Shown here piece by piece: positions 22,918-62,500 of a stretch of DNA of 64,000 nucleotides. The position numbers and the translations under genes were made by a program. Source of the DNA: Opisthocomus hoazin (lineage: Eukaryota > Chordata > Aves > Opisthocomiformes > Opisthocomidae); assembly GCF_030867145.1 (NCBI RefSeq), contig NC_134434.1:9052001-9116000 (forward strand). The letters are read 5' to 3'. Below the pieces are notes generated by a model that was given only the letters and a program-made list of their open reading frames with translations, had not been told where the DNA came from and did no database searches. How positions within the stretch are numbered: the first letter of the stretch is position 1; each line of letters opens with the position of its first letter.

Positions 22918-22944
22918 TCACTGTCTCCCTCTAGCTCCCACCGC

Positions 22945-22951
22945 TATTTAA
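22945..22951 (-). promoter_or_regulatory. FASN: FASN TATA-like box
   Basis: TTAAATA on the minus strand within GCTTAAATAGCG. It predicts a start site near 22,917. FASN promoters in mammals and birds have a similar AT-rich box at about -30. Confidence 0.8.
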
Positions 22952-22975
22952 GCAGCCGCCACCTCCGGCGGCCAC

Positions 22976-22990
22976 GCCACATGGGCTGAC
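22976..22990 (-). promoter_or_regulatory. FASN: E-box and overlapping SREBP site, about -65
   Basis: The minus strand reads GTCAGCCCATGTGGC, with E-box CATGTG at 22978-22983, about 63 bp upstream of the predicted TSS. This corresponds to the known -65 E-box of FASN, bound by USF and overlapping tandem SREBP sites that confer the insulin/feeding response. Confidence 0.75.
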
Positions 22991-23010
22991 GGTTTACTCC
23001 TCGCCGCAGT

Positions 23011-23015
23011 CCAAT
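23011..23015 (-). promoter_or_regulatory. FASN: Inverted CCAAT box (NF-Y), about -96
   Basis: ATTGG on the minus strand (CCAAT on plus), within CTCATTGGACTG. It lies between the SRE and the E-box at the spacing of the FASN inverted CCAAT box, where NF-Y cooperates with SREBP. Confidence 0.75.
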
Positions 23016-23030
23016 GAGAGTCGGGGCAGG

Positions 23031-23060
23031 GCCGCCCCGAGCCGGCCCCGGGGTGATGCC
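23031..23060 (-). promoter_or_regulatory. FASN: GC box and sterol regulatory element, about -115 to -140
   Basis: The minus strand carries GGCATCACCCCGGGG, containing the SREBP core ATCACCCC (revcomp of 23050-23057), followed by a GGGGCGG Sp1-type box (23032-23038). The order SRE, GC box, inverted CCAAT, E-box, TATA matches the known FASN promoter. Confidence 0.7.
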
Positions 23061-26529: not shown

Positions 26530-29500
26530 ATGTACACAGATTAACCCTTTATTTTAGGGTTCACAGCATGAAACAGAGTATTTGTTCTCTTTTCTGGCTG
26601 CAAACATCACAACTCGACATACAAAAAGGAGGCTGACATTTATATCTGTTTTACAGATTTCAAAGTTAATAGTAAGTGTGGACCTGGGACTTGCCACCGG
26701 CAAAGAAATCAGTCTTTAATATTATAGTTGCGGATTTTTGCCATGTTAGAAGAGATTTTTGGTTTTATGGGATGAGCACAAGATAAATTCCTGGATTTTA
26801 ACTTCTGCCGAACTTCCAGTCTGGTTCCTCTGACTGTCAGATCTGCTGCTGGCATTTCCGGTTTATCCCTTGCTTTGATATTTTGCTGAGATTCTTCCGA
26901 TTTCTCAGTTGAATGTGCCACTTCAAACTCCACTGCTCAAAAAAAGAAAGAAAAATACTTTGTAGTTATGTTTGTATTTAATTATGAGACTGGATAGTTG
27001 AAGAGAACTGGTTTACTCTTTTTCTCCAAATATACTGCTGCCATAGTGCCATACTGTTGATGTCTTATATTGAGTAACAGAAGCATTTCTGTACATAGGA
27101 GGCACACAATTGTCCTTTGAGGTTTGCTATGCTGATGACATAATACATCAGTATCTCCTGCTCAATCCTTGCTTCATCTGTAGCTGTTCATTCTTCATCA
27201 GACTGCTTAAGAGAGGAGAAAGGAAGACAGCTGGAAGGTCACTGTAACTGTTGAAGTCAAGCACTACCTATCTGTTCAGTTGTTTTTAAACATCCTATTT
27301 TACAAGTTTACCCTTCTCTCCATTGTGAGAGAACATATGTATCAATAAAGGCAATACCAACACACTGGACAACACAACACAAAGACCTACCTACCTGTGC
27401 CCATATTGTGAAATGGTGATAAAGTAGTTGGCTGCAACAGTTTGATCTGTTTCAAGAAATCACCAGCAGCCATAAAAGCTGGAGCAAAACGTGTTTGGAT
27501 ATGCACAATCCAAAGGGCTCAAAGGCAATTCTGTGTGCTTCACAAAGCTGCACTACTACCACTATCTTTTGGGATTGTTTTCATCTTTTCTCATGGAAGA
27601 AGGCGTTTACTGTGGAATTCTTTGTTTTCCTTGTTTGAAGTACTGTGTGTACTAGAGAGTGTACTGTATGTACTAGAGAGGACTAACTCAAAAAGTAACA
27701 TCTTTGGTTGGCAAGCAGGGAGACTGGTCTTAACATCAATTGGAGTCCATTCTGCAGCCTCTCGCATAATTCTCTGAAAACTACTATCTCGAACCAACTG
27801 AACTTCAGTCTTATCACAGGTTTCATTAGGTAAGACAAGTGGAATTGGTCCATCACAGTATCCATTGTAAGCTGTAGATAATATTTACAGCTGCTTGGCT
27901 CTAGTCACTTAATCCTTATTTTTCAAGGCACTGAGATTTTAACTTTAGATTTGCTATGAAGAGCCAAAGCAGGCAGCAGAAGTAGTCACAATATACTCGC
28001 AATAACACACGCTACAACATTCTGTACTAGATGATTTTTTTTGATCATGGTAGGCTTCAGCGACAGGTACTATTCAATCACAGAGAAAGAATAAGAGGCT
28101 CACAAATTGATGAAGATAAGTTATTAATAGGATAAGGTAAATTTTCATAGTCAACAGAACATGGTAGAAAGTCCAAACAAAATTCTACATGGAAGGAAAT
28201 AAAAAATATTATTGAATTGTGGAATGAATTAATCTATTGAGGGCTTATAGCTCTATGCAAAGCATGACACTCTGGCTAGTGTCAAAACACACCACTTTTC
28301 ACAGTAACTTTTATGTTCAGGCTTAGGCCGAGCCAGCTGTTCACTCGTGTGTGTGCAATCTCTGCACTGAGTCAGCTTGGTGGCGTTTGTTGTTATAGGC
28401 AGCAAGAGCCCAGTGGACTCTTGTGCTATTGATGCAAAATCACCTTGCCACCTAGTGGTTACCTACAGATGTAGAAGATATGAAAGAGGATGCTTGAGTC
28501 CATGGAAGACCTTTGGGTGTATTTTCCTGCCTGGAAAAAGGACTTTCATCCTTATAGTTCATTACCCTAGACCTCTACCACATCTGGCAGATGATAAAGC
28601 AGAATTTTACAACACCAACAGTTAAGAACAGTGCAGGCAGCGGTGTCTGAAAGGTACCGGATACAGCTTCAAAGATTATTTTGCTTCAACAGGAGCTGCA
28701 GCAGAATGAGAATATGTCTTGTTTGTGGTCTAAATAACAGCAATGAGCAGATCCACAAATAGCACACAGTCAACACTGCTTACGGTAAGTCTGTTATTTT
28801 GAATACTCCCTCAGTTTTGAAGGGTCTTTTGTATTCAACCAAGGGTATAACTTTCAGAAATAATGTGGGAGGCCCCAATACTGTAGATCCAAAGGAAAAG
28901 TAACCGAGCACCAATGCATCACATGCATCCCTTCCTCTGAAGTCTTCTGTATGCTTGTCTCTTGACATTAGCAGAGACATTACAGTTGTAACTAGCAAAA
29001 GCTACTTGCTTAGGTGTTTGGAACAACACAGAACACAAGCATTCTATATGGCTATTGTAAAGTTTTGGACTGTCAAAAATTCTTGTTAACACAGAAATTT
29101 AAAACCCTGCAAACTTGTAAGGTTAGTTCTACAAAACAGAAAAAGACAAAGAGCAATAGCCCAGAATTAGAAATGCTATTTAAAGTGAAATATCCTAAAG
29201 GAACACTGAATAAGGACCTGCATATGTTACTGGTTCTGCCTGGGACTGTTCACGTGTGAAGGACCTTGACAAAATCAGCATGAATGCGCACTGTGCAGTA
29301 AAATTTTAATGCAAGTAGCTCAGTTTTCACAAACCAACAATGAAAAGGCACACCACGTTTACAAGCCTGTAACTTACTTTCAGCAGGGACCTTGGCAACA
29401 AGAGCGAGTAAGATCATTGTTAAGAGCCTAGACTGCCTGTGAAAATGGACCCAAATGTTTAGTGTATTGAAATGCTTAACATATCTTCTATTTGATGTGT

Positions 29501-32500: not shown

Positions 32501-35500
32501 CGGTTGTTCTCAGGAAAAGATCACCCCTGACTGATGTTTCACTTGTTTCGTGTTGGCAGTATCATCTTTCCGTTTTGCTACTCTCTAGATCCCCAAAAAT
32601 CTACAATAAGTTTTGCAATGGTGGCTGGAAATTTCTAGACATTAAGAAACTGATGTCCTTGTAAGGCTGCCAGTGGTGTTGCATCATACACACAGCAGCG
32701 TGAAAACTGCATGGCACTATCAGTAATGTTTCAAAGACATCCTTTTGCTTATCCTGTCAATATAGGCCTGACCTGAAATACTCTTCCTATTTCAGTCCCA
32801 GCCCCACAAAAAAAGCACATGAATCATGACTGTCAGCACTATGTCTGTTCCAGTCCTACAGGTCTGCCAATGCACATTACTTTGTCCCTGCAATGCACCG
32901 CTGTTGTGAATAAATACACTTATAATCCATTCTCCATTTTGAAAGCCCTTTTACATTTTTTTTTCCTTGTGTGCTGCTAAAGATGGTTCATTGCATCTAT
33001 ACACTGGTTTAAAAATAGATGTAATATAGGTTGGAAAGGACCTCTGGGTGAAATGTCACAGTGCTTATCACTCCTTGCTCAGAATGTATCTTAACACAAC
33101 TTGCGTCCATTGCTGCTTTTCTTTTCACTGTGCACCCGGAAGAGTCTGGCTCTGTCTTCTCCAAAATCTCTCACTATGTAGTTAAAAAGCAGCAATCAGA
33201 CCACCCATTGGCTCTTTCTTTTTCTACCCAGTTCTCTAAACCTCTTCTCATGTAACCTGTCTTCCAGTGCCCTAGCCATCTTAGTGGCTCTCCATTGGAG
33301 TCCAGTTTGTCAATCCTTTATACCACAGGGCCCAAAACTGGAAACAGTGCTCCAGATGTGGCCTCACAAGTATCAAATAGCAGGGAACAAATCACTTTCC
33401 TTAGTCCACGGGTTGCATACTTCCTCCTGCTGTCTGGTGTGTGGTTAATGGCACACAAGTTTCTATGTAATGGTAACAGGTCACGATTAAAATAAAGCTC
33501 ATTTGAAAAGGCTAAATGCCTGCCATGTTATGCCACAGCTGCCATCAGGTCTTGGAAATAATGATGATGATGAAAGTAATAACATCAAAACCAAAAAACC
33601 CAACAACCCCCTCAAGCCCCACAGCACTGTAAGAAATAATTCACTAAATGCTAAACCTCTTATTCAAAAATAAAAATCACCTTTACTTGGAACACTCTGG
33701 AGAGACGTTTGTCTGTCTGTTTATAAAGACCTTTAACACAGAAGAGTCTACAATTGTTCTGGGGAACATATTCCATTACTAGCTGCCATTAAAGTTTTTC
33801 TAGTATTATAATTCAGGGCCACTACTCTTTGTCCCATCCACAGCAGGCATTAGAACAGTTTTCCAAAGTTTTGCCGATAAAGGGTTACTTCATGAACAGG
33901 CCAACAGTTTGGGAGACGTAATATTCATCTGCAATGCAGTGCTCAACACAATGGCTACCATTAAAAAGTTCCTTTACAACTGGCCTGTGAAGCGGTTACA
34001 CTTCACTGCACACACCTTACAAATGGCCCTCCTGCTAAAATCTCCAAGAACATGTGGTGCTTTTTGTAGAAGTATAACACTGAGTAAGGTTCAGTTTGTG
34101 ACCTAGGTTTTACCTCCTCCTCTCATCCTAACCCTGATACTGTCTGATATGCAAGGTCAGGATGCTGTCTCACATGTAAGAATTTGTGTCTGCTTTTATT
34201 TTTTTAAGTTCCAACTTATGGCACTGGACTACAAAATTCTAGTGAATAACAATACCTAGTTCATTGTGTGCCCACAGCATATATCACGCTATGCCCATAA
34301 TCTCACTTTTGGCCTTTAGGTCTTAGCACACTAAGCAGTACTGTAGCTGTTTACTTGCCACAAAAATTATTAAGCAAGGATTTGCCAAATTACAATTTGA
34401 TCTAACAGTCACTTGGTAATGCCTGAAGTGTACAGTTTTCAGACAGACACTTTCATATCTGCCCCAGATAAGGTTTATATTATGTCAAAACAGAAGAATG
34501 TTTTCATTTTCCAGGAGTATTTAATAAAAGGGGAGAAGTATTTGCAACAATGGCATTAAAACTGAAGACCTATATAGGCATTTCTCTTCATTCTTTCTTC
34601 TGCTGGCAAGAGTGAAATGCCCTTCAAGTAACTCATTAGATCTTTGTATTCGGATTACAGGACTGTAACAACGGCAGCAGCCATGCAAAAAAATTAGTGG
34701 AAGGGGGCAGAATCCACTACTGTACTTTGATTCTTCTAGAAGAGCCAAATACTGTGACTATTTTACAACATATGCTTACCTTGGTCAGTGTTCTTTTGAT
34801 GACTGAGAATAGAAGGGCTTGATCTTATTTCTGAATTTTGCCAAATACCTCGGCAGAAATTGTGTGCTCTAGATGAAGAAAGCTCAGCGGATGGTAATTC
34901 TGTTTCTTCCCCACAGCTGCTTGGAGCTTCTTCTTCCTTTAAGCTAGGGCAGGCAACTAGAGGAGTGATCCCTGAGGGATGCTGTTCCTTTGCATACTGC
35001 AGCTCCTAATATGAAATGTTTCATTAGCACAAATAACTCATGGTCTCTAAAAATAACACATTTATAGCTCAGTTTGCTGTTACATCGCTAGGTTTAAAAT
35101 AACCAGTTATAAATAATATTAAACAAAATTATGTTCCCTTCAGATCAACAGGGCCAAACAATCCTCCTAATACACCTCTTTCTAAATATGTTCAAAATCT
35201 ACATTTCTTGCTGCTGTTACTATCATCCTTCTTGTTACTCAAGTTTATATTGCCAGTGTCGTTCTTCACTTTTGTCTTTTCCCATTACTAAATTACAGAA
35301 GAGAAACTCCCAAAGAAGTCCTAAAAAACCAAATAGAATAAAGCAGCTATGGAAAAGTGGTTTGTCAGCAACTAAGAAAACCTGATTATCCCACAAAGTT
35401 TAACCACCTTTCAACATGTAGCAATTAAAGTGAGATTTGATGAAAAGCAAACTGCTTCAGCCCTGTTGAAGGAAATGAAAATAACCATCAAAGTCTTATG

Positions 35501-38500: not shown

Positions 38501-41500
38501 ACAGCTGTGATTTCTTAGTGCAATCTGACGATATGATAGGATTCTTTCTTGTGTAGTTTCACATTATCACAGAGACCTTAGCATGCAAAAAAAGAAATGT
38601 TAAACCTCAGTCTCCTACATAGTCCTGGATTAACCATACTGATCCTCAAAACAGCTCTCAATCTTTTCTTGATTTCAGTTAAGAGAAATAAGAATGTATG
38701 AAGAGAGAATTAAAAATGAACAGTATCCTCCAGAGGACATTAGCTTTAACTCAGTTGATTTTTTTCGCCAAAGGGAGAGGAGATTGCAGTTTCAATCTAA
38801 TAGGCTGGAGGCTGACTGCTCGGAAAGCAGCTCAGCAGAAAAGAAACAGGAAACCTGGTGGACTACAAGTTGAACATGAGGCAGCAATGCATTCTTGAGG
38901 CCTTCAGCCTACAGCATGCTGGGTTGCATCAAGACAAGCACTGCTAGCAGGTCAAGGGAGGTGATTATTTCCCTCTGCCAAGCACTGCTGCAACTACATT
39001 TAGAATATTGTGTCCACTTTTGGGCTCCCCATTGCAAGAAAGACATGGACATACTGGAGCAAGTCCATCAAACAGCCACAGAGATGATCAGCGAATTGGA
39101 GCATATGACATACAAGGAGACATTGGAGAAGCTGGCCTTGTTTAGCCTCCAGAAGAGATAGGTCAGGAGTGATCTTTTCAACATGTACAAGCACCTGATG
39201 GGGATGGTGGGAGGAGGTAAAGGTGACTGAGCCACACTTTTCTCAGCAGTATACGGTGGAAGAAGGAGAGGCAATGGGCAGAAAGTAAAGTACAGAACAC
39301 TCCGCTTAAGCATAAGGGGGCAAAAAATCCTCAAACCCCAACCTTCTTTCCTGGGATGGCGATCAAACACTGGAATAAGTTGCCCAGAGGGGTTCCCAGA
39401 GGAAGTATTTCCCCAGTTGAACTTGGTTAATAATTCTACTGGAGTTTATACCTCAGAGCAACAACCTCACCCTTTCTGAAAGAACATTGTTTACTGCCCT
39501 CAAAACTACAACGACAATCAGCTGCTCTGACTCAATCCTCACAGGAACAAATCTGCTGATCAATTAAGTAAAGTACATAGTGAAATCCTGACTACTGAAG
39601 CCACTGGGAGGTCTGCCACTAACTACTAGGACAGCCAGGATTTATCCATTTGTCTCTCTGATGAAAGCCGCAATCTAACGATAAAAAGTTGTGTTTTAAT
39701 TACAAACAATTAGAGACAGGTTAATTATATATCCTGCATTCATATATGGAAAATGTGCTATTACGATAATTTGAACAAAGGTGCTTTAAAATCCCACCAC
39801 TGTGGATATTTGGAAATATGTTCACTGATTAATCATTCTCAAGTTTATCTTAGAACATGCTGCAAATCCTTCAAATGGCCTATCTTACTTCTTTAAAACA
39901 AAGCTTTATGAAGTTCATACTTATAATTCAGATTGCATTTATGCTGCATTAACACAGGTGTTTCTGACATTCCTTGGATGAAAATAATGTTTAAAAGTTT
40001 AATTCTGAAGTCCCGAATATAACCCTTTAAGTAAAGGGGGTAACATCTGGCTGGCGGCCAGTCACTAGTGGTGTTCCCCAGGGCTCAGTTTTATGGCCTG
40101 TTCCCTCCAATGTTTTTATCAATGACCTGGACACAGGAGTTGAATGCACACTCAGTAAGTTTGCCAATGATACTAAATTAGGAGGACTGATTGATTCCCT
40201 TGAGGGTAGAGAGACCTTATAGAGAGATCTTGGTAGACTGGTGCACTTGGCAATCACCAACCATATGAAATTCCACAAGAGCAAATGCTGGATTCTGCAC
40301 CTGGGACAGTGTAATCCTGGATGCCCATATAGACTGTGGGACAAGAGGCTAGAAGAAAAGAATCTGGGGGTTTTGGTTGATGGTAAGCTCAATATGAGCC
40401 AACAATGTGCCCTGGCAGCCCAAATGGCCAGCCGTCTCCTGGGGTTCATGAGTCACAGTGTGGCTAACAGGTTGAATTGGTGTGGTCTCACCTCGAGTAC
40501 TGCGTGTAGTTTTGGGCTGCACAATATGAGAAGGATATAGAAATATTAGAATGTGTCCAGAGGAGGGCAACAGTGATGGTGAAAGGACTAGAGGGCAAGA
40601 CTTATGAGGAGCAGCTAAGAGAACTTGGCTTGTTCAGGTTAGGAAGGAGAAGACCTCATTGCTGTCTACAACTTCCTCACCAGGGGGAGCAGAGCGGCAG
40701 GTGCTGATCTTTCTGCTGTCCAGAGATAGCATGCAAGAGAATGGTTTAAAGCTGCATCAGGGGAAGTTCAGACTGGGTATTAGGAAGAAGCTCTTCCCTG
40801 AGCTGGGGTTCAAGCACTGGAACAACACTCCCCAGGGAGTGGTTGTGGCCCCAAGCCTGTCGGTGTTCAAGAAGCATTTGGACAATGCTCTTAGATACAC
40901 GGTTTAACTTCTGTGTTGCCCTGTGTGGAGTCAGGACTCGAAGATCCTCATGAGTCCCTTCCAGCTCAGGATATTCGATGATTCTGTAAAATCTACCAAG
41001 GTACCAAAGGAAGATTTGAGCTAGAATCCGTTAAAGACACTTCAATGCAGATTTTTAAGGAAAGTTATATTCATGGAATTAGAACTGACTTAACTGCTCA
41101 TTATCACTAGATTTCAGAAAACATATCATTACCTGTGTTGTAAGCCTGTGCTGTAGATGCTTTAAAGCTGATAGCTGACACTGTGTTCTTTTGACAAGCT
41201 CTCTTGGAAAAAGACTACCAGAGGCAATACAAACTGTGCAGCACTTAGAGCTAACAGGATGCCAAAGTCCTAGAAATGAGAGAAAATACTGAGGAAGGAT
41301 TTCTCTGTTGTTATTTTGTCACCAATATTACATTCCCAGCAAGTGTTTACAGTGGATACAAACGAACTACAGAACACAGGCCTTTTCATTGCAGCTGGAT
41401 TCAATGCTATGTGGAAACAGGCCTCATGTTTTTCTCCTTTGCTTCATTATCAGAACAGTTGTTGCATGGAACTTCAATGTCCACAGTGAAATCTTCTTAG

Positions 41501-44500
41501 ACTATATATACTCTTGATTCAAGTTTACTCTATAGTAAGCTTATTCTGCTTTCTCTTCCACTTTCATAAAGCATTAGTTTTTATTCCAAGAGATAAACTA
41601 CCTCTTTTTCTCCTCTTAAAAGAAGTCTTAGTTCAACTTCCAGTTCCCACACTAACATCTAAGCACCGGGGAGTCCTTCGTCTAAGATGTTCATCAACAA
41701 AAAGTTACTGCCTACATACTCTTAGTGTTCTATGCTAGCACCTCCCATCACAGGATAATCTTATTTGCAACAATTAGCACAGCAGCCTCACACAAACTGT
41801 GCAGATCAAGAATCTGTCAGGTCCAGCACTTTGTTTTCATATTAAAGCCTAGCTGTCTCCAGCTCGAAGAAGGAACTGATTCCCATGTTTTATTCTAAAC
41901 ATATAAGCTAGCACCCTGCTGTAGAATAAGTTTACCTTCCTTTAATACCATTCCAAGTTCTGCCCTGAGTCTGTTTCCCATTTCAATCAGCTGCTGCTTC
42001 TCTTGGCTCAGAACTGCGATTTTTCTTGCTGCTTCCTTCAGTGCATTTTGTGTTCCTTGTGGAGTGCAGCTGACATCATATTGAAGACCAACACCAGGAC
42101 CTATATCAGGTAACTCTTGTCCAAGATCTACCATCTTTTCTTCAAGAACTTTGGGTTTCGGCCCCTGAAAAAAAAAACAGATAGTGCTTGTAATGAATAT
42201 TTTGAAAGTGTGGTCTGTGGATTTAGAGATTTTGTACAAATGTGCATTAGAACCCAGTTGAAAAAAAAGTGTAAAGTTGAAGTCTACAGCCCATTTTTGA
42301 GGGCCCATTTTCAATACTTTGTTATCAATATAGGGCAAATTAAACTGTGGAGAAAATGCTATAACAGCCTGAGACATTCTCACAGATACTGCTAACTGTG
42401 TGTAAAATAATACCACATAGGATAAACACCGTGTAACTGTAAACTAGAAAGCAGTTAATTTTAAGTTAAAATGTGGAAAAAAAATTTTACAGCAGATCGC
42501 AAGCTACCACAAACCCTTCTTTGTGTAATCATCACGTGCATACACACATATGGGGTAGAATGACTTAAAACACTGTTTTCAAGAGAAAGGCTGCAGAGTG
42601 AAAAGTACAAATTCTACAATCGGAAAGCATGCAGGTCCGCAAACAGTATTGGAGAGAAAGCTGGAGAAATTAGTGCAGGACTAGAATATAAAAATATGAA
42701 GAAAGACACCAAAGTGAAAGAAAAAAAGAAACACCACTTTGGCATAACATATAGCAATTTATATCAAGGCAATTACTATAAGCAGCCACAAATTATTACA
42801 TTCTGCCCTCATCATATGAACAATGAAATTAACACACCGAAGCTTAACATACAGAGAGGTCAAGGTGATGACCAATTACCCCACCAGTGGCTGTCACACT
42901 ATGTACCACCTTCATTGTACCAAGAGGCAAAAGCACATCACATGGCTGGGGCATGAATATCATTTGCTTAAATTTCTATTTTTCCTGAACTTTTCATAAA
43001 AACTTTCAACAGTGTTACCCAGAATAATTTTTTTTTTAGGTAACAGATTGTAAGCTGTAGAGTTAGGAGTGGAACTCAGAAATCTTTTTATCTCTAGATC
43101 CATGTCCAGAGTAAAACTCTGCAATACAAAAAAGAGAAAACATGGGAAAGATGGGTACTAAAAAAAGTGGGAGGACAAACTCTGCTCAGAGCTGATATGA
43201 AGAGAAAAGAAGAAGGATATATATACACGCAGAAGTCTACATGCCTATTTTACCAGTTTCCACAATAAACTTTCCTCTGTAGCTAAATTTTAGCTCTGGA
43301 GTCTATAATTTTGAGATTATGGTCCCAGAACCTCTGTTATATTAAATGGAAACAAGAAAACTATCACTATGGCTCACAGTATTGACTTCACATCAGCACC
43401 CTCATGTTTAGTTACCATTATTGCTCAACAGATTATAAACTCCCCAAGGTAGAAATATTTTTGCCTGTAATTCATCACAGCCTTAAGTACATCCTTAGCA
43501 AGCAATTAATAAACGTAAGAAGTGCAGAGACAATGTAGAAGAATATTAAAAAATAAGCACTTCTAAAATCCAGTAAGGAATTCTAATGAAGTTTTGCCCA
43601 TTGTTTGTAAGATATTCTCAGGACTGTTTCCAGCTGCCAGTCTATGCCTAAGAAGGCTTATTATGCACTAAGGAAGAAGAAATAAAGCAGACGGCACAAA
43701 TAGACAGGAAATGATAGTTCAACTTCAGTGAAGACAATATTAACTGCAATTCTAGCATTTAGTTCACTTCCAGTTTTGGCCTGCACATCTGCTGTTTACT
43801 ACTTGCCTATACGTACAAAGCACAAAGTAATTCAGCATTTCACACTGAAGATGCACATGGCTGCCTGAAAAATGTTCTTTTTCAATTATAGTTTAGCATC
43901 ATGAAGCAAAGGATTCATCTCTGGCACAGAGAATGTTCAGTTCCTATCTTACTGTCTCCATGAAAGCCATTCTCCACTTTTAAAGCTCTATCCCTACCTA
44001 AAGAAATGCAAAGAAAATGCAAATGCATCTTGAATGGTAGTTTGTAAAACATTTTCTGCAACAGACAGAATAGTTGGTATACAGATTAATTGAAAATTAG
44101 AAAACCGTTAATTTTTATTTATATTTTCACCTATCTTACTTTAGACTCTGTTTACTACACCATGAAATTGCTGGGAGACAGGAAGGGGAGAACAGACAGT
44201 GACTTACTCCTTATGTAGTATTAGATCTTTGTCACAGTTTTCAATTCCTTTATTATTTTCCTGAGAGATTGCCTCTGTCACACTTTAATGCTGATATTGT
44301 TCCTACCCTTTAAAATAACACAATGGGAATAACATTTGTAAACCCTAGCACTGAGTAAAAATGCTCCCAGAGCCTTTGTGGGTGGTGAGAGAATCGATCC
44401 AAATCGATGTTGGTGCTCAGTTATTTCTCCTGGTCATACTGAGTCATTCCACAGCAGCCTGCAGGGCATGCACAAGAGCCCACTGCAGCTGGACATCCCG

Positions 44501-47500
44501 CTGGTGCGGCACGGGAGCTGGTGAGTGGGAGGTGGCGGCCACTGGCCCCACCAGCACTGCCACGTTGCACCCTAGCATGGGACTGGCAGAAGCGAGCCCC
44601 ACGAGCCGGCAGTGACGAGGTTCTCCCAGGAAAAGCCACCCACATCCCTGACGGAGTATGCAATGCCATTTGCATATCTATCTCCAACCAAGGCTTCACA
44701 GGACCCTCTCGTCAGAGTCCAGTAGTCACACAGTATCTACAGTTTCATCTCTGTTCACCTTATTACAAGGCATATTGAAAGATTTTCAGTATTTTAAAAA
44801 AAGGCTAAAATACGGATTTACAATGGAACCCAAACTACTCTATGATTCTCTGATTCTGTGAAAACTTGAGGTGATACACAGTAGTGTAAGAATTTGCAAG
44901 TGGAAAAAAAACAATAGCAAGAAGGGCTTGAAAGACCAGGAGTGACTTGTGCCAGGGAACGACTAGTCAAAATCTATTCCCTAGAAAGAATGAGCATAAG
45001 TTTGGCTGAAAAAATCATTGCTGGCTCTCATCTAACTTACATTTATCACTAACTGACCACATAAGCATATACTGCTTCAGTTTTTAATATTAATTCAAGC
45101 AAAAATAATATGCTATATATTTAATTACACACACATACGGATATTTTAGGTAGTTTAAACTTCATACCTTTTCTGTGTCTGGGCTTACTATACCATCCAG
45201 GTTAGTTGAGCTGACTTTAATATTGCTCAAAGTAGTTCCAGCTGAAGTTTTGTTTGTGCACAATGAACCTAATCAAGAAGAGGAGTAGATATACTGTAAA
45301 CAGAGCTGAAGAAACATAAAAAATAGCACAGTCTCACAATGCACAAAGATCAGTCAGCTACAAAATACAGAAGTCACTACAGATGACACATTAGAAAGGT
45401 CAATTTGTGGCTAAGGAGAACAGAGAAGTTTTTATTTCTTCCTGTACTGCATAATTTAATCTTTCTTGCGAAACTGGCAATACTGAGTATAACAAGAATA
45501 ATTAAGACACAGCAGATTCTTTCAATCACAGTTGGAAAAAATTGGCAATAAATGGAAGTTAATCCCCAAAATCTCTTCTTTTAGTTCCAGTAAAAAAGTG
45601 AGTCTGAACGTATTGATGTATATGGACAAGTCAGGGGAAAGAACAGATGACTTTCCGGAAACTAGAAGCGCCCCTCTAAGTTACTCTCCCACTTCCTTAA
45701 AAAATTCAGATTTAACATTATCATCTCTTTCAGTGATTGAATATAATCTCCAAACATTTTTAAAAGGGATATAAGAAAGATTATTTTAGTTGAACGAAGT
45801 ATTTCAGCCATAATGGAAACAGATAATACATATCTGAAAATTTACATGTATCACCTGACAAACATTATTGCTTCTCTTGGACACTGCTAAACTCTAGCAG
45901 TGGTGAATCTTTTACATATTGGACTACACCATCTTCAAAAAGCAGTGGACTAACTTTAGTTGCCTGTGATGAAAAACTATGCTTGGATTTGGTTTTTTTA
46001 TTTAAAATTGACAGAGGTTTTGCTTTAATTGGTTATTTATGTCTCATTATTAACAAAGCTAGAATACGTTTATCTTTATTAAAAGTGCCTGCGCACTTAA
46101 TTAGCTCATGATTTCGTTATACTGTACAAACGACAGTTAAAACTAATTCTGCAAACTGGTAACACACAGATCCAGTCTTACTGCAAAATTACAACAGAGA
46201 AGCATAACAACAGCAAAACGGTACAACGAAATACCTTTCATTAATCCCATCTTATTTTTTCTGAAATACAGAAAAGAAGGCATGGTGGCTCTGGAATAGT
46301 TTGAAGCAATTAGACATGAAAAGTTTACGTAGATGAGACACAAATGTATGAAGCAGCTATTTACGTATTTACACTTACATAACGAGTAAAAGGTGCTAAA
46401 CACAGGGCTACTTATTCCACAGAAGTAAAAGATGTCCTTTAAAAAATTATACCTTGCCTATTCTTTTTTAAAAAACAAAACAAATCAGAGCTGGTTATTC
46501 CAGTATCAAGTTACAGTTGATTTCCTTTTCTCTTTTCTGCAGACTTCCAAAAGTCACAAGAATGTTTATGAAGAAAAAATCCAGTTTTGTTTCTGAACAG
46601 GCCTGCATGAGAGCCAATCAAGACCAAATGTAACAAATTTTCAGAAATTTACTGCAAAATGTATGTAGTTGTAGTGGACATACCTTCTGCAGGTTTGGTG
46701 GTTTGTTTTTTTTAATGTTATCAGCTTTGACTTTCCCATGAAGGATGATGAGAAAAAGTAAAAATGAAAGTGTAAGACATGATATACTGAAATGTTTCTG
46801 AGAGATGCTAAAAATAATGCAACTAATGTGTGACAGTATCTGGTAAAATAATGCATTTGAAAGTACTACATATTTTTAATATTGAGATGTTTAAAAATCT
46901 TCAGCTTCCTGATAGAGCCACTAAAAAGGCCACCTGGTAAACATACTGAAAAGAAGGGTAAACATACGGAAAAGAAGGGTGTTTCCTTAGCGCTCAGCCA
47001 TAGTAAGCAGGACAAAGAAAGCTTGCTGGGTGCAGGACAAAGAAGCTGTGATAATGAACTGACCTTCCAGAAAAACAGGACTCTGCAACAACTATACCTG
47101 GAACTGATGCCCTATGCCCATTTACATATCTACACCAAAAAGGTATAAAAAGTAACTCACTACCTACCCAAAATGAGTCTCTCTGCAAGACCCTCTCTGC
47201 AAAAGCTCCCCTGCATGCAATCTCCCGGACAAACTGGACCCTCACTGATGACGCCTGGCTGACTCCAGACTCTGTGATGTGGATCATCTTTGAAGTGAGA
47301 GTCTTTTTTTTTCCATCATCACTTAGCCCCACTCTTGGGAGAGGTTTTGTGAGTATCATACCAGTAACATCTCATATAATATATTTACAGGCACGTGCCC
47401 AGGTAAAGGTCTGTAAGAAAGACATAGACCTGTTAAAGCGGGGGCCCATGAAAATTAGCAGAGGGCTAGAACACTTCTCCTATGAAGAATTTTTTTACAA

Positions 47501-50500
47501 TGAGGGTGGTGAGACACTGCAACAGGTTGCCCAGGGAAGCTGTGGATGCCCCATCATTGTAAGTGTTCAAGGTCAGGTTGGACAGGGCTTTCAGCAATCT
47601 GATCTAGTGAAAGATGTCCCTGCCCATGGCAGGGGGGTTTGAACTAGGTGTTCTTTAAAGGTCCTTTCCAACCCAAACCATCCTATGATTCTATATACTT
47701 GCTTCACTGGTTGCAATTCTGTAATAACTTGTAATATACATATATTTGCTTTACTCTTGCAATATACATATGCATTTGCTTTCCTAGTAGTAATTGTGTA
47801 GTGACTTCTAGTGTGTGTGTATATTTGTTGTTACTTATAACAGTTTTGTAATGATTTTTAATAAAGAAATTCTCAGAATCTCGGACCTCTGTGTGCTTGT
47901 GTATTGTGGAATCCTGAGAACCCCATGGTCAGGATTTTACACACCCGTGGGTCAAGTAGCTCTCATGGGTCGTGACTGTGACCTTAAATGAATTTAGAGT
48001 TCTGTGGCAAAAGTTGTCACCTTGCTCTGCAAGCTGTCTGTTTTCTGCCAGAGGAAGAGAGAACAACATCTGCTCATCAAGACTCTCCATTTCTTTCCTC
48101 ATTTGTGCAACAGCAGCCCGAAGGCTGGCATTCTGCTCCTGCAGCTTTTTTATTTTCAAGGCAGAAATATCTTTGCTCAGAGAACTTTTAACATAATATT
48201 GAAATACCTGTAAAATAAAAGTACAACACAGTAACAGTGTTTCATTAATGAGCAACACATATCCTCTCCACAACACCACATACAGAGATCCTAATACTTT
48301 CAGTCCATGAACAGACTTGGCAGAAAGGAACCACAGGAAGAAAAGAAACAGATCTGGTTATTATGGGGGTTTGCTAGGGAAAAAAAGTGCTATGATGAGA
48401 ACCTGAGATAGAGGAGGAGGCATAGATGGTCAGCAGGATGGCCACAGAGGTGGCTCTGTCTTATCACTGTTGTTCTTTGAAGAGTGCTATCTCTTATCTC
48501 TTCTGTGTATGGGTAACCTACCTCCTTAAAGAACTTACTGGCTCAACAGCAGTCCCCTTTCTGACTTGTTGAATTCTTGGAAGTGTAATTGGACATCATT
48601 TGTTCACAAGAACATAAAGAGGCTGGACATCCTTTGCTAAACTGGAAAAGGGGAAGCAGTATATGGATTACTTCTAGGCAACCTGGACAACTGACAACTT
48701 CTAGAAAACCTCTAGGCACTTCAATTCTGAAATAAGTACCAATGTCTTCGTTGTGCGCATTAGTTATAGACAAGCTAACAGTGAATGATGTAAAAGGAAT
48801 ATTTGTCAGATAGCGATTTAAGCTCTGCCTTCACAAAGGCCTTGACGCTGACTTTTGGAATTATACTTGGTGGAAGTATGAATTGATGAGCAAATGTCGT
48901 TCTTACAGACTTTCAGAACTGAAGAGGCTGACAAAACCCAGGTTGCCAAAGCTGCTTTAACTACTGTAAAAAAAAGTAATTTATGTTAGTAAAATATGAG
49001 CAGCTTGCTTAGAGAGTAATACATCCCTGAATAATTCTATTTCTTAAACTTTTGAAGGGGCATTGCTCAGTGTTTTCTTCATGAGCTGCACACAGCCTTA
49101 AAGATTATCTTAAGAGATTTGGTTTGGAAAGCTAGTCCTGTGCAAAACTTGCTAGATCACTCTAAGAACCGCTTTACTCTGTTACGCTGAAAGTTGCTAG
49201 CTCCAGAATCCAATTCTTGACAAGTCAGCAACATATGTTTATGAAAAATACAGGAAAAAGGACAAGTATGGAAACTTCTTCATCAATGACCTGGATGAAG
49301 AGTTAGAATGTACCCTCAGCAAGTTTACTGATGACACAAAACTGGGAGGAGTGGTGGATACAGTAGCAGGCTGTGCTGCCATTCAGCGAGACCTGGACAG
49401 GCTGGAAAGTTGGGCAGAGAGGAACCTTATGAAGTTCAACGAGGGCAAGTGCAGGGTCCTGCACCTGGGAAGGAACAACCCCATGCACCAGTACAGGCTT
49501 GGGCTGGACCTGCTGGAGTGCAGCTCTGTGGAGAGGGACCTGGGAATGCTAGTGGACGACAGGTTGACCAGGGATCAACCTGACCAGGGATCCTGGGTGC
49601 ATTCAGAGGAGTGTGGGAGGTTCTCCTTCCCCTCTACACTGCCCTGGTGAGGCCCCATCTGCATTCTTCTGTCCAGTTCTGGGCTCCCCAGTTCAAGAAA
49701 GATGAGGAGCTACTGGAGAGAGTCCAGCGGAGGGCTATGAGGATGATGAGGGGACAAGAGCATCTGTCCTATGAGGAAAGGCTGAGGGAGCTGGGCTTGT
49801 TCAGCCTGGAGAAGAGAAGGCTGCGAGGGGACCTAATAAATGCTTATAAATACCTGCAGGGTGGGTGTCAGGAGGATGGGGCCAAACTCTTTCCAGTGGT
49901 GCCCAGTGACAGGACAAGGGGCAATGGGCACAAACTGAAGCAGAGGAAGTTCCAGCTGAACCCGAGGAAGAACTTCTTCACTCTGAGGGTGATGGAGCAC
50001 TGGAACAGGCTGCTCAGGGAGTTTGTGGAGTCTCCTTCTCTGGAGATATTCAAGACCCGCCTGGACAAGGTCCTGTGCAGCCTGCTGTAGGTGACCCTGC
50101 TTCAGCAGGGGGGTTGGACTAGATGACCCACAGAGGTCCCTTCCAACCCTGAACATTCTGTGATTCTGTGAAATGCTTCGTCTCACATGTCTCCTCAATT
50201 TCCAAATCTGCAACTTTGGGTGAGGGAAGAAAAAGGAAAAGCAGATGTGACAAAAAAAGCCAAAGACACAGAGAATGATTGGAAAATACATTTTCTAGTC
50301 ACTTGAAATTCCAGCACAATCTTCAGGAAAAAATTCTAGTACGAGCAATGGGATATAAGGACCAGGATATTAGGGGCCTGATAGGATTGACTTCTGCTGT
50401 TTCTTCATTCAAAGTGTGACTGCAAACATTTTTAAAGATGTTACATTAGATGAATGGCAGTGTATTCTAACTGTGGTTTCAACCAAACAAAGGATGCAGA

Positions 50501-53500: not shown

Positions 53501-56500
53501 AAAGCGTATTGCTTTTGGCTTAGTCAAAAAATGCCTTCACAGAAAAATAATTTGGCTTCATTGTCTTATCTTCTGTATGTAAAATGGACAATGCTGATTC
53601 ATATCTCAGATGTATTTCTATGCTACACCTGTTGATGCCTATGAATCATTTTGGGAAGACAATGGTAAAATAAAACGCCAGGGTAAATGCCTGCATTCTA
53701 AGCTTTGTAAAAGAGTGTTTCCTCTGTACCCACAAGTTTACCAGGCAACCGGTCACTGAGAATTATTGTTAGTCCATTGTGTAAACAATAAACATGTATT
53801 TCATATTTCAGAAACACAAGCTTGTACACTTCATAAAATAGGATTTTTTTTTCCTCACACAAAAATACTCTGAATTTTCCAGGACTAATATTGTTCCCTT
53901 GATAGAGTTCAAGATGTATTATGATATGAAACTCTTTTTTGGCCTAGGGCTGCTCGAACTAAAAGCGATCTTTCTTCTGATACAATGCCAAGAGAAAAGC
54001 AGTGGCATCTCTCCAGCTGACAACTTCATTACAAGGGAGAAAAGGTTGCTATTAGAGATTGTCCATGAAAATTAATCTGGTCTCTGATCAAAAATACCTG
54101 ATGAACTGCTGTGTACAGAATTAGTTTTACAGATTGTTGAAAGAAGACCAAAGTTGCGGCTCCCCTGAGCAACGCCATGATGGAACAACTCCATAGCTCT
54201 CTATGTAACAGATGGTTCGTAAGTGGTGTTAATTTGAGATTCTCACCTGCTCTCTTGCTGAAGACAGGGTCTGTGTTAGATCCTCTGATTTCTGGCAATG
54301 ATTACTTTGAGCATTCTCACAGAGCTGCTGCCAGTCCAGTTCTGCTTTCATTTTACTCTGTTCCAGAATCCATTCTTGCTCAGCTGCCAGAGACAGTTGT
54401 TGTTTATACCTAACACACAGAGCAAAACTGTTGATTTCAGAAGGATGTTTTGTGTTTGCTTTTTGGTTTTGTTTTGGTTCATTTTTTTTTTAATTTCACA
54501 CTTTTTGGCTGACCTTATCTTCTTTCCTTTTTCTGTTTTCCAATGTATCTATTTTATTCTATTTCACTCTAAGTATTTTACTGGACAAAAGCATTTTAAT
54601 TGTTTAGAGCTCAGCAGCCTTCTAGAGTCCATCTGTACAGATATTTAGAATCAGCTTTGGAGGTCATCTCAGCTTAAGAGGCATAAACTGCTCTTCAACA
54701 CCAATACTGCTCTTGGCAATACCATACACAGCATGTGTCCCATTTGTAATAATGGAAATGAGATACAAAAGAGCTAGGAATTAAAGCTGTTGGATTCTCG
54801 GGATAAAATTCCTACGCTCAAAGGCTGCTGCATATACATACATTGAAAACGCACTGCAGAAAGAGAAGAGATAGGAGGAGCACAAAATGAGACAAACGTC
54901 ATATTCAGAATTTAAGGGCTTTCAAGACAGGTTCAATTGTCCTATGGCCGAGCTTTTATAACACCAAGCTATCAAGACTTCAGGGCATTGTTATGACTGG
55001 TTGGAAATACCACTTTAGACAAAATCTTAGTCTTCTTTACCACTCTGCATATTTCTGGAATTTGACCAACTGCGCCCTCAACTTCTCTTCCTGTCCATGC
55101 ATTGACTGAATTTGGAATTCTTTAGAGGCAGACTCCTTAGAAATCTCAAATCAGATGAGAATCTTGGCCTGGTTTTAGCGCTACAATTTCTTCTTGAAGT
55201 CTACATACAAGAACAGCTTCCCTCCCATATTAATATATACTTGCTTAAGACAATTAACAAAACATGTGATGCAATCTTGGATATAAAACTGTTCAATGAC
55301 TTTTTTTTTTTGTTTTTTTTTTTAATTAGCTCAGAGGGACTTTTTCATGAGCCAAAGTCATATTGTAAACCATGCATTTCCAGTCACACAAAATGCAGGC
55401 CATCTAAGCAACTCCTTAGTTTCCAGTGGCCTTCTTGGATTGGCAATTATCACAGAATCATAGGATCACAGGTTGGAAAAGACCTCTAAGATTATGAAGT
55501 CCAACCATCAACCCAACACCACCGTGCCTACTAAACCATATCCTGAAGTGCCACATCTACACATTTTTTAAACACCTCCAGGGATGGTGACTCTACCACC
55601 TCCCTGGGCAGCCTATTCCAATGCCTCTTTCCAGGCTGGTTATGAAAGAAATTCTTTTCTTCTGGTGTGTTGTTCCTTCTCTAGGTTCCCAGATACTTTC
55701 TTTTCCATGTAACCTCCTTTACTTGCTAAACTCTGAGGAGATGTTTCCTGATTATGTCAATCACACAACCAATGTTTATATCGAAATTTTGCTACAAATT
55801 TTGTTGCAATAGTATAGAAAGAGCATAGAACAGATTGGGTTGGAAAGATCATCTGGTCCAACTTTTCACAGGAAAGGGAGTCTAGATGAGATTATCAAGT
55901 ACCCTGTCCAATTGTGTCTTGAAAACCTCTAGTGATGAGGACTCTACCACATCCCTGGGGCAGTTGTTCCAGGGACTGATTGTTCTCACTGTAAAAATAA
56001 TTTATTTTAACACTGAAATGAAACCTCTCCCAGTGCAACTGGTACCCGTGGCCCCTTGTCTTCTCCATGCGGCTTGTGAAAAGAAAGCCTCGATCCTCTT
56101 TGCAGCTGCCCTTTATGTACTAGAAAACTGTAATGAGGTCCCCCCAAGCCTTCTCCAGATAGAAAAGATCCAACTCCTTCAGTTTTTCTTCACAGGGACG
56201 GTTCTCCAGAACGTTGATCATCTTTGTGGCCCTCTCCAGTCCATCTGTGTCTTTTTTCAACTGGGGACCAAAACTGGGCACAGTACTCCAGGTGTGGTAT
56301 CCGTTTAACCATGAATTACTGTGAGCTTTTCACATAAGTTGGGCACAAAACTGGTAGGTATGCTGTTTGGAGTTTCTTTCATCACCGCTTGTGAAACAAG
56401 ATAAATCAAGTCACTCACTTTCTAATAAGAGCATCTTTCTCTCTTAAGCAAGCACAGTGGCTCCATTCTCTTCTGCACAGCTCAGTTTCCAGACTTTTAT

Positions 56501-59500
56501 ATCTCATCTGAAGTTCTCTAAGCTGCTGCTTCAACTTTTTAAACTGTTTCACTTGGGCTTCTTTCCCTGAAGCTGGCATTGGATCCATTTCCTTGGTGGT
56601 AGCATGAGCTAGTTCTTCATGCCTAGAAGATGTAGAAAAACAGAATAAAGTGAGGTGTCTAGCAATACAAGCACATTATTTTTTATTGCTGTTGATTTAC
56701 TTTCTTATTAATTTAGTTCAAGCAAATTCAAAGAATCATTGTCGGAAGCAGTGGAAGCTGCAATCAATATCTGCTTGACAGTGGAACAGGTTGTAAGGAG
56801 GTCTTTTGCGGTTGTTTTTTCAAGAATGCCACTACTCCACTACTTGGTTGGACTTAGGACAAGGACTGAGTCCTCCTTATACCACTGCAGAGAGTTTAAC
56901 TCCAATTTATCACAGAACTTTAAGTTTGTGATTAGCACAAAGAACAGTTTCACTTAATTATGGGCTCAGGGTGATTCTATAAATTACGTGGTTGGGTTTT
57001 TTTAAGGTGACTCATAGAGAAGATATTTCAACAGGTGAACTATTTCATTCAGCATACTCTTTTACCATACTGAAAACATTCTTCCTAGTAAGAATAATTG
57101 AAACACAGCTATGATCAGGTGGCCCAAATAAGAGACTGTAGGAATTCATGGAGCAAAAATTAATTTCCTGAGCATGCGCTCACACAAAAATAGGGATCAG
57201 GTTTAAAATGAGAAAAAGGTGAGTTATTAGAAGAAAAGGCCACAGATTAGTGCCTATAGAAAACTTGAATCTAACAGTAAACAAAAAATGAGACATGCAA
57301 GTAATAGTTGTGTAATGTTCTTATCCTCAGAAATTGACCTGCATATAAATTTTAAATCATATACAAAATTTTGGATACAAATGATTAAAGCAAGACAGAA
57401 GGAACAAAAATTGAACTATGAGCAAATCTTATTTCTTAAGTTTTAACTAGTGAAGAGTAAAACATAAAAGATAAACCCCCCAATAATACTCTGGTTACTC
57501 TCTCTGTATATATCACACTGTCACTATATTCACAATCTGTCTGTAGCTGCTTGAGAAAGTATAAGTTGTGACTGAACACAACTAGACTTACTGGATTCAG
57601 ATCAAGTGTATGAAATACAAGACACTAAAACTAGCCACACACTCTAGAAGTGGGAAGAACTAAGCTTTTTAATTATATTTACTGCTTGGGAGAGGTACTC
57701 CTTTTTGCAGTAAAGGCAGAAGGTACCATTGAACCATTAAAACTTCTAAGATAAAATGTTATTTTTAAAGTGAGACAGTTTACATCCAGGAAGAATGTAG
57801 CAGAATTAACCTGAATCCATGCGACTTGGCAAATACGTCATACTAAGGGCTACTTCTTTCTGTTGTAACAATATACATTACTAGATCAATTAATTCATGT
57901 ACACAATTCCAAGTGGTTGCTAAAATAAGAGTATATGAAGAAGAATAAGCTGGAAGTGTTGTGGAGTTGTAGAGTTCGTGAAAAGCAGTTTATTTTGATC
58001 ATAATAAAAATTGTAAGATAACAAGCATCTTTCACAGCAACAAAATCATTGAACTGGTTTTCTTTCTCCAGTTTTAAATCAAACATTTCTGCTGTTTGCA
58101 GTGATTCTAGTGTTTGCATTCCAGTGTCTCTGAGGGCCTCCAGTTCTCTGGTGAGCAGCTTCACCATAGAAAGGCGGAGAATAAGACTTAGGAATTCTAA
58201 TGGGAGCCTGATATAACCTGATTTTTTTAAGAGGTCCAGAGCCCTTATACAGTTGAAGCATTAGCATCAGCTACAGAAACAAAACAGTATAGAATGTTGT
58301 AGGGTGTTTTTTTGGGAGTATGCTTCTGTTGTTTGTTCGTGGTTTTTTTTTTAATTTGTAAGTAACATTTGCATGGTATAAGGATTAGATCAACAAAGAA
58401 CTTTTAAACACCTTCCCCATAAGCTATAACCTCTGCTGTTATCTAGATTTCTACTTCCATATTACTGCAAAATACCCATTTTGTATCCTCTTCCTAAACC
58501 TATTACCTACATTAACATTAATCCTGCATAGTACCCCCACCTATCTCTGCCTAAAGTTCCTTTTACAGTTTTTTATTCAGTGACTCCTTGGCTTCCCCTG
58601 CAGCTGGCCTCACTAATACATGGGTGAAATAACTGTGGATGACCTCTCCTTCCCTTGCTTAATGCTTCCACCACCAATTTAGGTGTAAATAATAGATAGA
58701 TATAAAAAAATATATATAAAATACATAACTCAGTATAGACAATATGTTTCATAAAAAAGATATAATGGCACACGAGGCCTACTGAGAGCTATTACATTCA
58801 GATGCAGCTGCAAGCAGTATTAGAAACTGAAACAGTATTATAGATATCTAATCAAGCACGTAAGTCTGAAAATGGCAAAGATTAAAGGTTTCTTCTGAAG
58901 TACTGTCAGAGTTACACTGCAAATCACAGAGTGAGAAATATATGCAAATTTACATTTAGTAAGTATACATGCAGTTGCAGCTCCTTTGTTCATACTGAGT
59001 AAACAGCAGTTGGTCATGCAATCTTTATAGTCAAGACTGCAGTAAGACAAAGTGTTTTTAGGTCCGGTACTACAGCAGTGTCCTTTAAAAAAGGCCCAGG
59101 ACAAGGTGTGTTGAGTTTGCTGTGTAGGGCTCTAGGCCGGAGAGAACAAATCCTGCAAAACACCCATTTTGAGACGCAGGCATTGCACTTTGGAAACTTC
59201 CGCATCTTGATAAGGGACTGTGGCAGGCGACTGGAACCCTGCGGAGGCAGGGTGCCAGCTTGCAAAGCCCACCTCTCTCCCTCTGAGATGTCATGTAGGC
59301 AAGGAATTTAAGCGCTTGCACAAGGCAGCGATCATCCTTGCTCCCCACCTCATTTCAAGAACTTTTGGGAAGCACAACAGTATCCCTCCCCTGAGGAGGG
59401 ACAACCGCTACCCGAAGCTGGAGTAACTGGACCTTGAAAAGGATGGTTAATTACAATGTTCTATGTATGCTGCAAACTTGGCAGAAGAACTGAGAATTCA

Positions 59501-62500
59501 TGTATCCTTAGTTGAACTACCCTCATTATAATACTAAAAATCACACCCCCTGAGCTAGAGACCCCGGCCCAGGCAAAGGCCCTTCCTCACTGAACATAAC
59601 TAGTGAATTCCAGAAGCATTATATCTTTAAACCGAAGTGAGAAGGGAACAAACCAGTCCGAGTTAGGAGGGTATGGCTAGTAAGCAGTACTAACATTTTT
59701 AACTGTACAACATGCAATGTGATTGTAAGTGGGTGTGCTTGATTGATGGGAAATCACCAAGCACCCAGGCTTGCGAAACCTTGCGATGAATGACCCCGAC
59801 CACCAGCAGAGACCATCGCTGAATCCAAGGGTGGTGATATCTTTTATCTTTCATTTTGTTTTCCTCTCTTTCTCTATCTCTGACTTTCTAGGCACATAAG
59901 GGTAATGTTGCTGTAAGTTTGTCAATCTGTTGTATTTTGGGGTTTTGTAAAATCAGACATTATGCGGTTCTAAGCTTTGCCAAGTCAATATCCGTTCTAA
60001 CATCACTGTGCTAAAGGTAATGTTCCAAAGTTGTGAAGTTACCCTCTTTTGTAATTCCACTGAACTCCAAGTAAAGCTTCATTTGTAGCTGAGCCTCTTG
60101 GGTCATTGTCGTGACTCCTAGGAACCACACAGAGAATTAAAAAGCTCACCTCCACCTTACTCGCTGAGTAGGACTGGACAGCATAGCAAGATTTTGGTAG
60201 CAGGGAGCCTACAGGGGTGGCTTCTGTGAGAAGCTGCTGGAAGCTTCCCTCCATGTCCAATAGAGCCAGGGCCAGCCAGCTCCCAGACAGACCGGCTGCT
60301 GGCCAAGGCCGAGCCCATCAGCAATGGTGGCAGCACCTCTGGGATAATGTATTTAGGAAGGAAAAAAAAAATTCCTGCATATCGGCAATGGCAGCCGACC
60401 AGAGGAGTGAGACCAAGCGAGATAAACAATTCAAACAATTCCACAGATACCAAGCTCAGTGAAGAAGGAGGGGGAGGACGTGCTCCAGGTGCCAGAGCAG
60501 ACATTCCTCTGCAGCACGTGGAGGAAGACCATGGTGAGGCAGGCTGTTCCTCTGCAGCCCATGGAGGTCCACAGCGGAGCAGATATCCACTTGCAGACTG
60601 TGGAGGACCACATGTCGGAGCAGGGGGATGCCCAAAGCAGGCTGTGACCCTGTGGAGAACCCACTCTGGAGCAGGCTCCTGGCAGGACCTGTGGGCCTGT
60701 GAAGGGAGGACCCCACACAGGAGCAGGTTTGCTGGCAGGACTTGTGACCCTGTGGGGGACCCATACTGGAGCAGTCTGTTCCTGAGGGCCTGCGCCCCAT
60801 GGAAAGGACACACTCTGGAGCAGTTCGTGAAAAACTGCAGCCCGTGGGAAGGACCCACATTGGAGCAGTTAATGCAGAACTGTGTCCTGTGGGAGGGACC
60901 TCACGCTGGAGCAGGGCAGGAAGCAGCAGCAGAGACAATGTGCGAAGAACTGACTGCAACCCCCATTTCCCGTCCCCCTGTGCCGCTCAGGGGGAGGAGG
61001 TAGAGAAAACTGGGAGTAAAGTTAAGTCCAGGGAGAAGGGAAGGGTGAGGAGAAGGTGTTATTAAGATTTAGATTTTATTTCTTATTATCCTACTTGGAT
61101 TTGATTGGTGATAAGTTAAACTAATTTCCCCAAGCTGAGTCTGTTTTGCCCATGATGGTAATTGGTGAGTGATCTCTCCCTGTCCTTATCTTGACCCACG
61201 AGCCTTTCATTGTATTTTTTCTCCCCTGTCCAGCTGAGGAGTGGGAGTGATAGAGTGGTTTTGGTGGGCACCTGGTGTCCAGCCAGGCTAAACTACAACA
61301 CAAGGCAACAAAAACAGAAACTAAATTCCAATAGTGTCAACATGCAAGATGTAGGAATCCATGGATACCACTAACAGCCAGGCAACCTTGTGTTACCCTA
61401 ATAAGCCTTCGGCAAGGTAAAGTTTGTAGGAAGAAGTAATTTATTTTATTAGACAAATACAAACACAGATAGACAAAGCTGGCAATATTTTAGGCATACA
61501 AGCCCTCTTTCCGAAAACTTACCTGCTTTTCCCAATGCTATCAGCTAGTTTAACGTGAGGGTTTTTTTCTCCCTCTACCGATACACCTTGGTTTGTTGAC
61601 TCATTAAGCTACCATTTAAACCACCACTGAACCAAGTGAACACAGGCACTACAGAACCATCCAAGTAATGTTGGTTGATGATTAGTGAAGACTGCACATG
61701 CAGAAAATACAGATTTTGGAAAAGTGAATTCCTCATTACTAGCCTGAGAAGGGTGAGACAGGCCTTTCAAAGACCTATATATAGTTCTTTGTTGTGTAGG
61801 AAAAAGCCCAGTCCCTACGAATGAAGTTAAGATGCATACCACAAATCGCCCGGCTTCCTGCTATCCAGGAAAGAATCAATTCAATACATAGGTGGAGGAA
61901 AACCAGCAACAACAACAGAGTCCTCTTTTCATGCATTTCATACAGGAATGACTTGAGATTATAATAAACGCATTCATTCTGTGAGTAAAGGTTAACAGCT
62001 TAAAAATAAATTACCTTAACTTCACAGGACAGAACTAAGGTACTCATTTCAAACGTCTGCTTTTGAAATTCTCGTTCTCTCTTTTTCAGTTCTGCATCAA
62101 ATTCAGCCAGCAGTTCCTACAAGCAGAGCAACAGATAGGTAACACTAGTACAATGGTACTGCTGGAAACACCATATTGTCATAGGCTTTTTTAAACACTG
62201 TACAAGGGGTTTAATCATTGCATAATCTTTCTCTGCTCTGATGAGAATGAGAATGTGTTGAATGAAGCCTATCATCTGGCCTATGGTAGGTCCCCTAACA
62301 CGACTTGTATAGCAAAGGGGAATTTGAAGAAACATATCAGCCAAATGGCATTTTTGTCAAAAAAAGATCAGATTCCATAACCACAGGGGAAAAGGAAAAA
62401 AAAAAGAAAAAAAGGTTATTTTAAGAAAAGAACACCAATACCTTACAGACATTAAAGTTCAACTCCTTACAGACATCTGAGCATTATTATGGAAACAACT

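Follow-up and report, generated by a model that had tools for sequence, protein, structure and literature searches.

CCDC57 exons in the window

The window, the whole 64,000-nt stretch of hoazin (Opisthocomus hoazin) DNA that was analyzed, carries CCDC57 on the minus strand from exon A to the last exon, N; the N-terminal exons would fall past window position 64000. The collinear exons match CCDC57 proteins of other birds and turtles, which identifies the gene as their orthologue. The features used below are as follows.

62015..62116, minus strand: CCDC57 exon A, intact (102 nt, phase 0 to 0)
58022..58164, minus strand: exon B, an open frame ending FVAVKDA (143 nt), with TG in place of the AG acceptor and TT in place of the GT donor
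56419..56622, minus strand: exon C (204 nt, phase 2 to 2), containing the internal Met that starts the annotated protein P0001
55041..55200, minus strand: exon D, frameshifted (160 nt against the 159 nt needed), with TGA in frame
55148..55150, minus strand: TTT run at the frameshift on the coding strand (AAA on the plus strand), with one surplus base within or beside it
54247..54409, minus strand: exon E (163 nt, phase 2 to 0), spliced straight to C in P0001
53232..53366, minus strand: exon F (135 nt)
48021..48207, minus strand: exon G (187 nt)
45168..45268, minus strand: exon H (101 nt)
41936..42164, minus strand: exon I (229 nt)
41133..41269, minus strand: exon J (137 nt)
34780..35005, minus strand: exon K (226 nt), with an in-frame absence of 40 residues compared to Morus
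26709..26932, minus strand: last exon N, with the stop, an AG acceptor and the C-terminal IRNYN

Exons A and C through K all have an AG acceptor and a GT donor. The annotated hoazin CCDC57 protein (P0001, 523 residues) was the top match among 349 database hits, obtained with a 702-residue query that included a putative exon L; this exon was omitted from a later query. Exons L (30828-30698) and M (27871-27684) had both been proposed by eye and were dropped, as P0001 splices K to N. Over all 523 residues, P0001 is identical to the translated window exons C, E through K, and N, which agrees with the hoazin origin of the window. It lacks exon D, begins at the internal Met in exon C, and includes no upstream exons. 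Compared to sauropsid orthologues of this centriolar satellite and basal body protein, the hoazin gene shares the exon order and the C-terminal IRNYN, with per-exon identity to the listed relatives ranging from ~47% (alligator) to 98% (Harpia, Mycteria, and Buteo). It differs in the frameshift of exon D, the loss of the original splice sites of exon B, the 40 residues gone from exon K relative to Morus, and an annotated start in exon C.

In the Apteryx and Dromaius models, a splice junction leads straight into the piece that is missing from hoazin exon K, indicating that these 40 residues start an exon of their own. In hoazin, two exons may have become one through a genomic deletion. Elsewhere in the window, a tandem array (period 45, 2.6 copies) lies at 60796-60914 within the A-B intron. 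Past the 3′ end of CCDC57, positions 20001-24000 reach a G+C content of 0.573 and resemble a CpG island, perhaps the FASN promoter judging by gene order.

Disrupted exons D and B

Exon D is bounded by an acceptor ending ..ttcttgtatgtag| at 55202-55201, with the AG present, and by a donor (GTG|gtaaag) starting at 55040, with the GT present. Because exon C ends with two spare bases and exon E opens with one, the length of exon D must be a multiple of three, and 160 nt is not. The exon reads 17 residues into a TGA, and the frame used by relatives picks up one base later and runs for 35 residues to the donor. Translation of C, D, and E joined together therefore hits the TGA, while C joined to E is free of stops. 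The Apteryx protein P0018 matches exon D as two pieces, 55211-55149 and 55147-55040, that lie one base apart, and alignments of the exon to proteins of kestrel, Apteryx, Dromaius, Struthio, alligator, and turtle span ~50 residues. Together, the split match and these alignments argue that exon D is not a chance reading. A preliminary description of this DNA had named the gene, strand, exon limits, required 159 nt, and one-base disruption. All of these were borne out by the exon phases, the splice sites, and the split Apteryx match, now with retrieved sauropsid proteins in place of the human protein used earlier. The assembled sequence thus contains a real one-base frameshift, sitting in an exon that is probably out of use.

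Several properties of exon D bear on its use. It is symmetric (phase 2 to 2), so its omission preserves the reading frame. Its donor fits only five of nine consensus positions, the poorest score, compared to seven or eight of nine in the nine other intact exons having a donor. Its pyrimidine tract (9 of 14) is the second lowest, with only exon K lower. The codon that straddles the D-E border specifies R in turtles, alligator, and emu; in hoazin, kiwi, ostrich, and buzzard, it specifies W. Rescue of the exon through other splice sites was also considered: the range tried held four open in-phase AG/GT segments, of which two use a different frame and two retain only the last ~eleven codons, and we do not favor this explanation.

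A further lesion, absent from the preliminary description, affects exon B, which is open but has lost both original splice sites (TG before it and TT after it). At the corresponding place, the kestrel read-through model P0080 reads ..LLSK and then VKLL, and the peregrine model splices at the same place; an AG is therefore expected there. This lesion is potentially more harmful than the frameshift in exon D. Joining A to C gives an immediate stop (EVKA, then the stop codon), and joining A to F stays in frame. Scanning 30 AG against 14 GT dinucleotides for a rescue of exon B yielded ten open in-phase segments. The best cryptic acceptor, an AG, lies six bases into the exon, after the old pyrimidine tract, and the donors that pair with it fit three, four, or five of nine consensus positions by manual count. 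With the original sites gone, exon B could stay in frame only through cryptic ones. Rescue through these cryptic sites, giving a shorter in-frame exon, is unlikely, and P0001 does not employ the cryptic AG.

Distribution of exon D and origin of the frameshift

To follow exon D across species, we surveyed the best 120 of the 349 hits, calling exons by score cut-offs. Among these, C and E occur together in 43 neognath models (42 named, with isoforms counted separately, and the galliform-like P0097). The hoazin model lacks exon D, as do nearly all of the other neognath models surveyed: C is spliced straight to E in 41 of the 43, and seven of these, all from hawks and eagles, have a slightly altered start of E. 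The exceptions were kestrel P0080, which holds a full exon D with an abnormal end, and buzzard P0068, which holds only its 3′ part, about half; the falcon models P0014 and P0021 omit the exon, unlike that of the kestrel. By contrast, among the same 120 hits, all 19 models from turtles and alligator kept exon D, as did four of six palaeognath models, the two omissions being the Apteryx rowi predicted isoform X2 and the Rhea model. Whole-database searches with exon D alone recovered kestrel P0080 (7 candidates) or kestrel and emu P0024 (18 candidates), although such searches are insensitive to relatives sharing few exact words and missed kiwi, ostrich, and buzzard despite their full or partial exon D.

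We consider it likely that exon D is a weakly spliced symmetric exon that neognaths omit from the mRNA and that hoazin retains, with a +1 insertion, as a relict. Turtles, alligator, and most palaeognath models retain the exon, and neognath mRNA would leave it out; the copy surviving in hoazin DNA would later have gained one base. A change from R to W at the D-E border would alter the base two positions ahead of the donor and may thereby have weakened that site. On this reading, hoazin mRNA would skip the exon, the skipping would be older than the insertion, and the insertion would be a true genomic change. Because the C-to-E junction is in frame, the insertion leaves the annotated product untouched. 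Exon D resembles symmetric exons lost through skipping in its 53 codons in relatives, its equal phases on both sides, its poor donor, and its absence from the annotated products of hoazin and its relatives (41 of 43 neognath models). It differs from them in that its splice dinucleotides are intact, its conservation equals that of its neighbors, and its skipping is read from gene models.

The level of conservation is a point against a relict. A relict exon would be expected to diverge faster than retained exons, yet hoazin and kestrel are identical at 43 of 49 residues in exon D, compared to 78-83% in C (55/66), E (43/54), and F (35/45). A translated 20-residue intron stretch used as a yardstick gave 15 of 20, inseparable from exon D (Fisher P 0.28). 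This suggests either that exon D became unconstrained only lately or that the region evolves slowly. The intact AG and GT also weigh against a relict, as does the kestrel model with its full in-frame exon, and gene models are predictions that may omit an exon merely because its frame is broken. We also considered whether the insertion is common to all Neoaves. The kestrel model speaks against this, reading HLIKISTES in frame at the site, although frameshifts may be concealed in automatic models and the buzzard model is missing the 5′ part of the exon.

The disruption had earlier been presented as a choice between a disabling mutation and an assembly indel. The disruption itself is present, but this choice was incomplete and missed the possibility of a skipped exon: omission of exon D keeps the frame, and the hoazin model and 40 of the 42 other neognath models omit it. 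The earlier suggestion that in-frame skipping would remove the functional impact agrees with the gene models, in which hoazin P0001 omits exon D, these being predicted models rather than transcripts.

An assembly or base-calling error seems very improbable. Single-base errors in runs are common, but the run here is just three bases long and not a typical error-prone homopolymer. Furthermore, P0001 does not bear the LOW QUALITY label that some other models do, a weak argument since this protein excludes exon D. Continued use of exon D in a minor or tissue-limited isoform, with its inclusion in hoazin now yielding a premature stop, is also quite improbable. The intact AG and GT, the conservation equal to that of flanking exons, the full frame in the kestrel model, and the Apteryx rowi models both with and without the exon would all fit such an isoform. 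However, of the 43 neognath models that contain C and E within the best 120 of 349 hits, just one, from the kestrel, holds a full exon D, which ends abnormally (..KFQKDLCSVYYR).

Decay of CCDC57 as a whole in hoazin, with the frameshift as one among several disabling lesions, is unlikely. The lost splice sites of exon B, the immediate stop at an A-C junction, and the absence of any exon upstream of the internal Met in P0001 are what such decay could produce. Three lesions (the exon B acceptor, the exon B donor, and the exon D insertion) fall in A through D and none in E through N, a split with a probability of 0.028 if lesions were distributed by length, for blocks picked after the data were seen and with the in-frame gap of exon K uncounted. 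Unitary pseudogenes share with the hoazin gene a frameshift and lost splice sites (here two), but their lesions would be spread across the whole coding sequence, and we found lesions only in B and D. Instead, the eight hoazin downstream exons, E through K and N (1402 nt), are open, have canonical splice sites, and are annotated as coding, with exon N sharing 82-90% identity with the six neoavian models it was aligned to. In-frame detours are also available, either from A to F or through exon B by way of the cryptic AG and a weak cryptic donor. The skipped relict exon thus remains our preferred explanation. Taken alone, the frameshift is a minor relic and most likely a harmless scar, ordinary in kind, and the accompanying pattern of exon loss is moderately interesting.

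Apparent exon loss in the middle of CCDC57 across birds

Other neognath models lack more of this region than exon D. The exon before A is spliced to F in the models of Aegotheles (owlet-nightjar), Nyctibius (potoo), Cygnus olor, and Anas platyrhynchos, and to G in that of Chlamydotis (bustard). By score cut-offs among the best 120 of 349 hits, E is present and A through D are all absent in 33 of 35 passerine and 6 of 8 parrot models; several passerines, among 16 such model starts inspected, splice the exon before A to E. Gene models in this pattern can be incomplete. We give about even chances to the idea that exons A-E, which form the central coiled-coil block of CCDC57, are being repeatedly dismantled across neognaths along routes permitted by exon phase, with hoazin midway: exon B has lost both original splice sites and exon D is frameshifted, and the C-terminal half is intact. 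These routes would comprise the omission of D nearly everywhere, the bypass of A through E to F or G, and the absence of A through D in most passerine and parrot models.

No description of CCDC57 exon loss in birds was found among the titles and abstract openings returned by a literature search. If the idea is true, bird centrioles and cilia would require only part of CCDC57, a gene that, judging from gene models, is apparently losing its middle and keeping its end in one large vertebrate group. The case also illustrates how a protein can be spared a frameshift that lies in a genomic exon. Stepwise exon loss of this kind would make a testable case that could show which part of CCDC57 is needed. 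The protein is described as acting in centriole duplication via CEP63 targeting (PMC7348975) and, in zebrafish, in basal body positioning and ependymal polarity, where a mutant without the last 407 residues is reported to develop scoliosis (PMC10013924).
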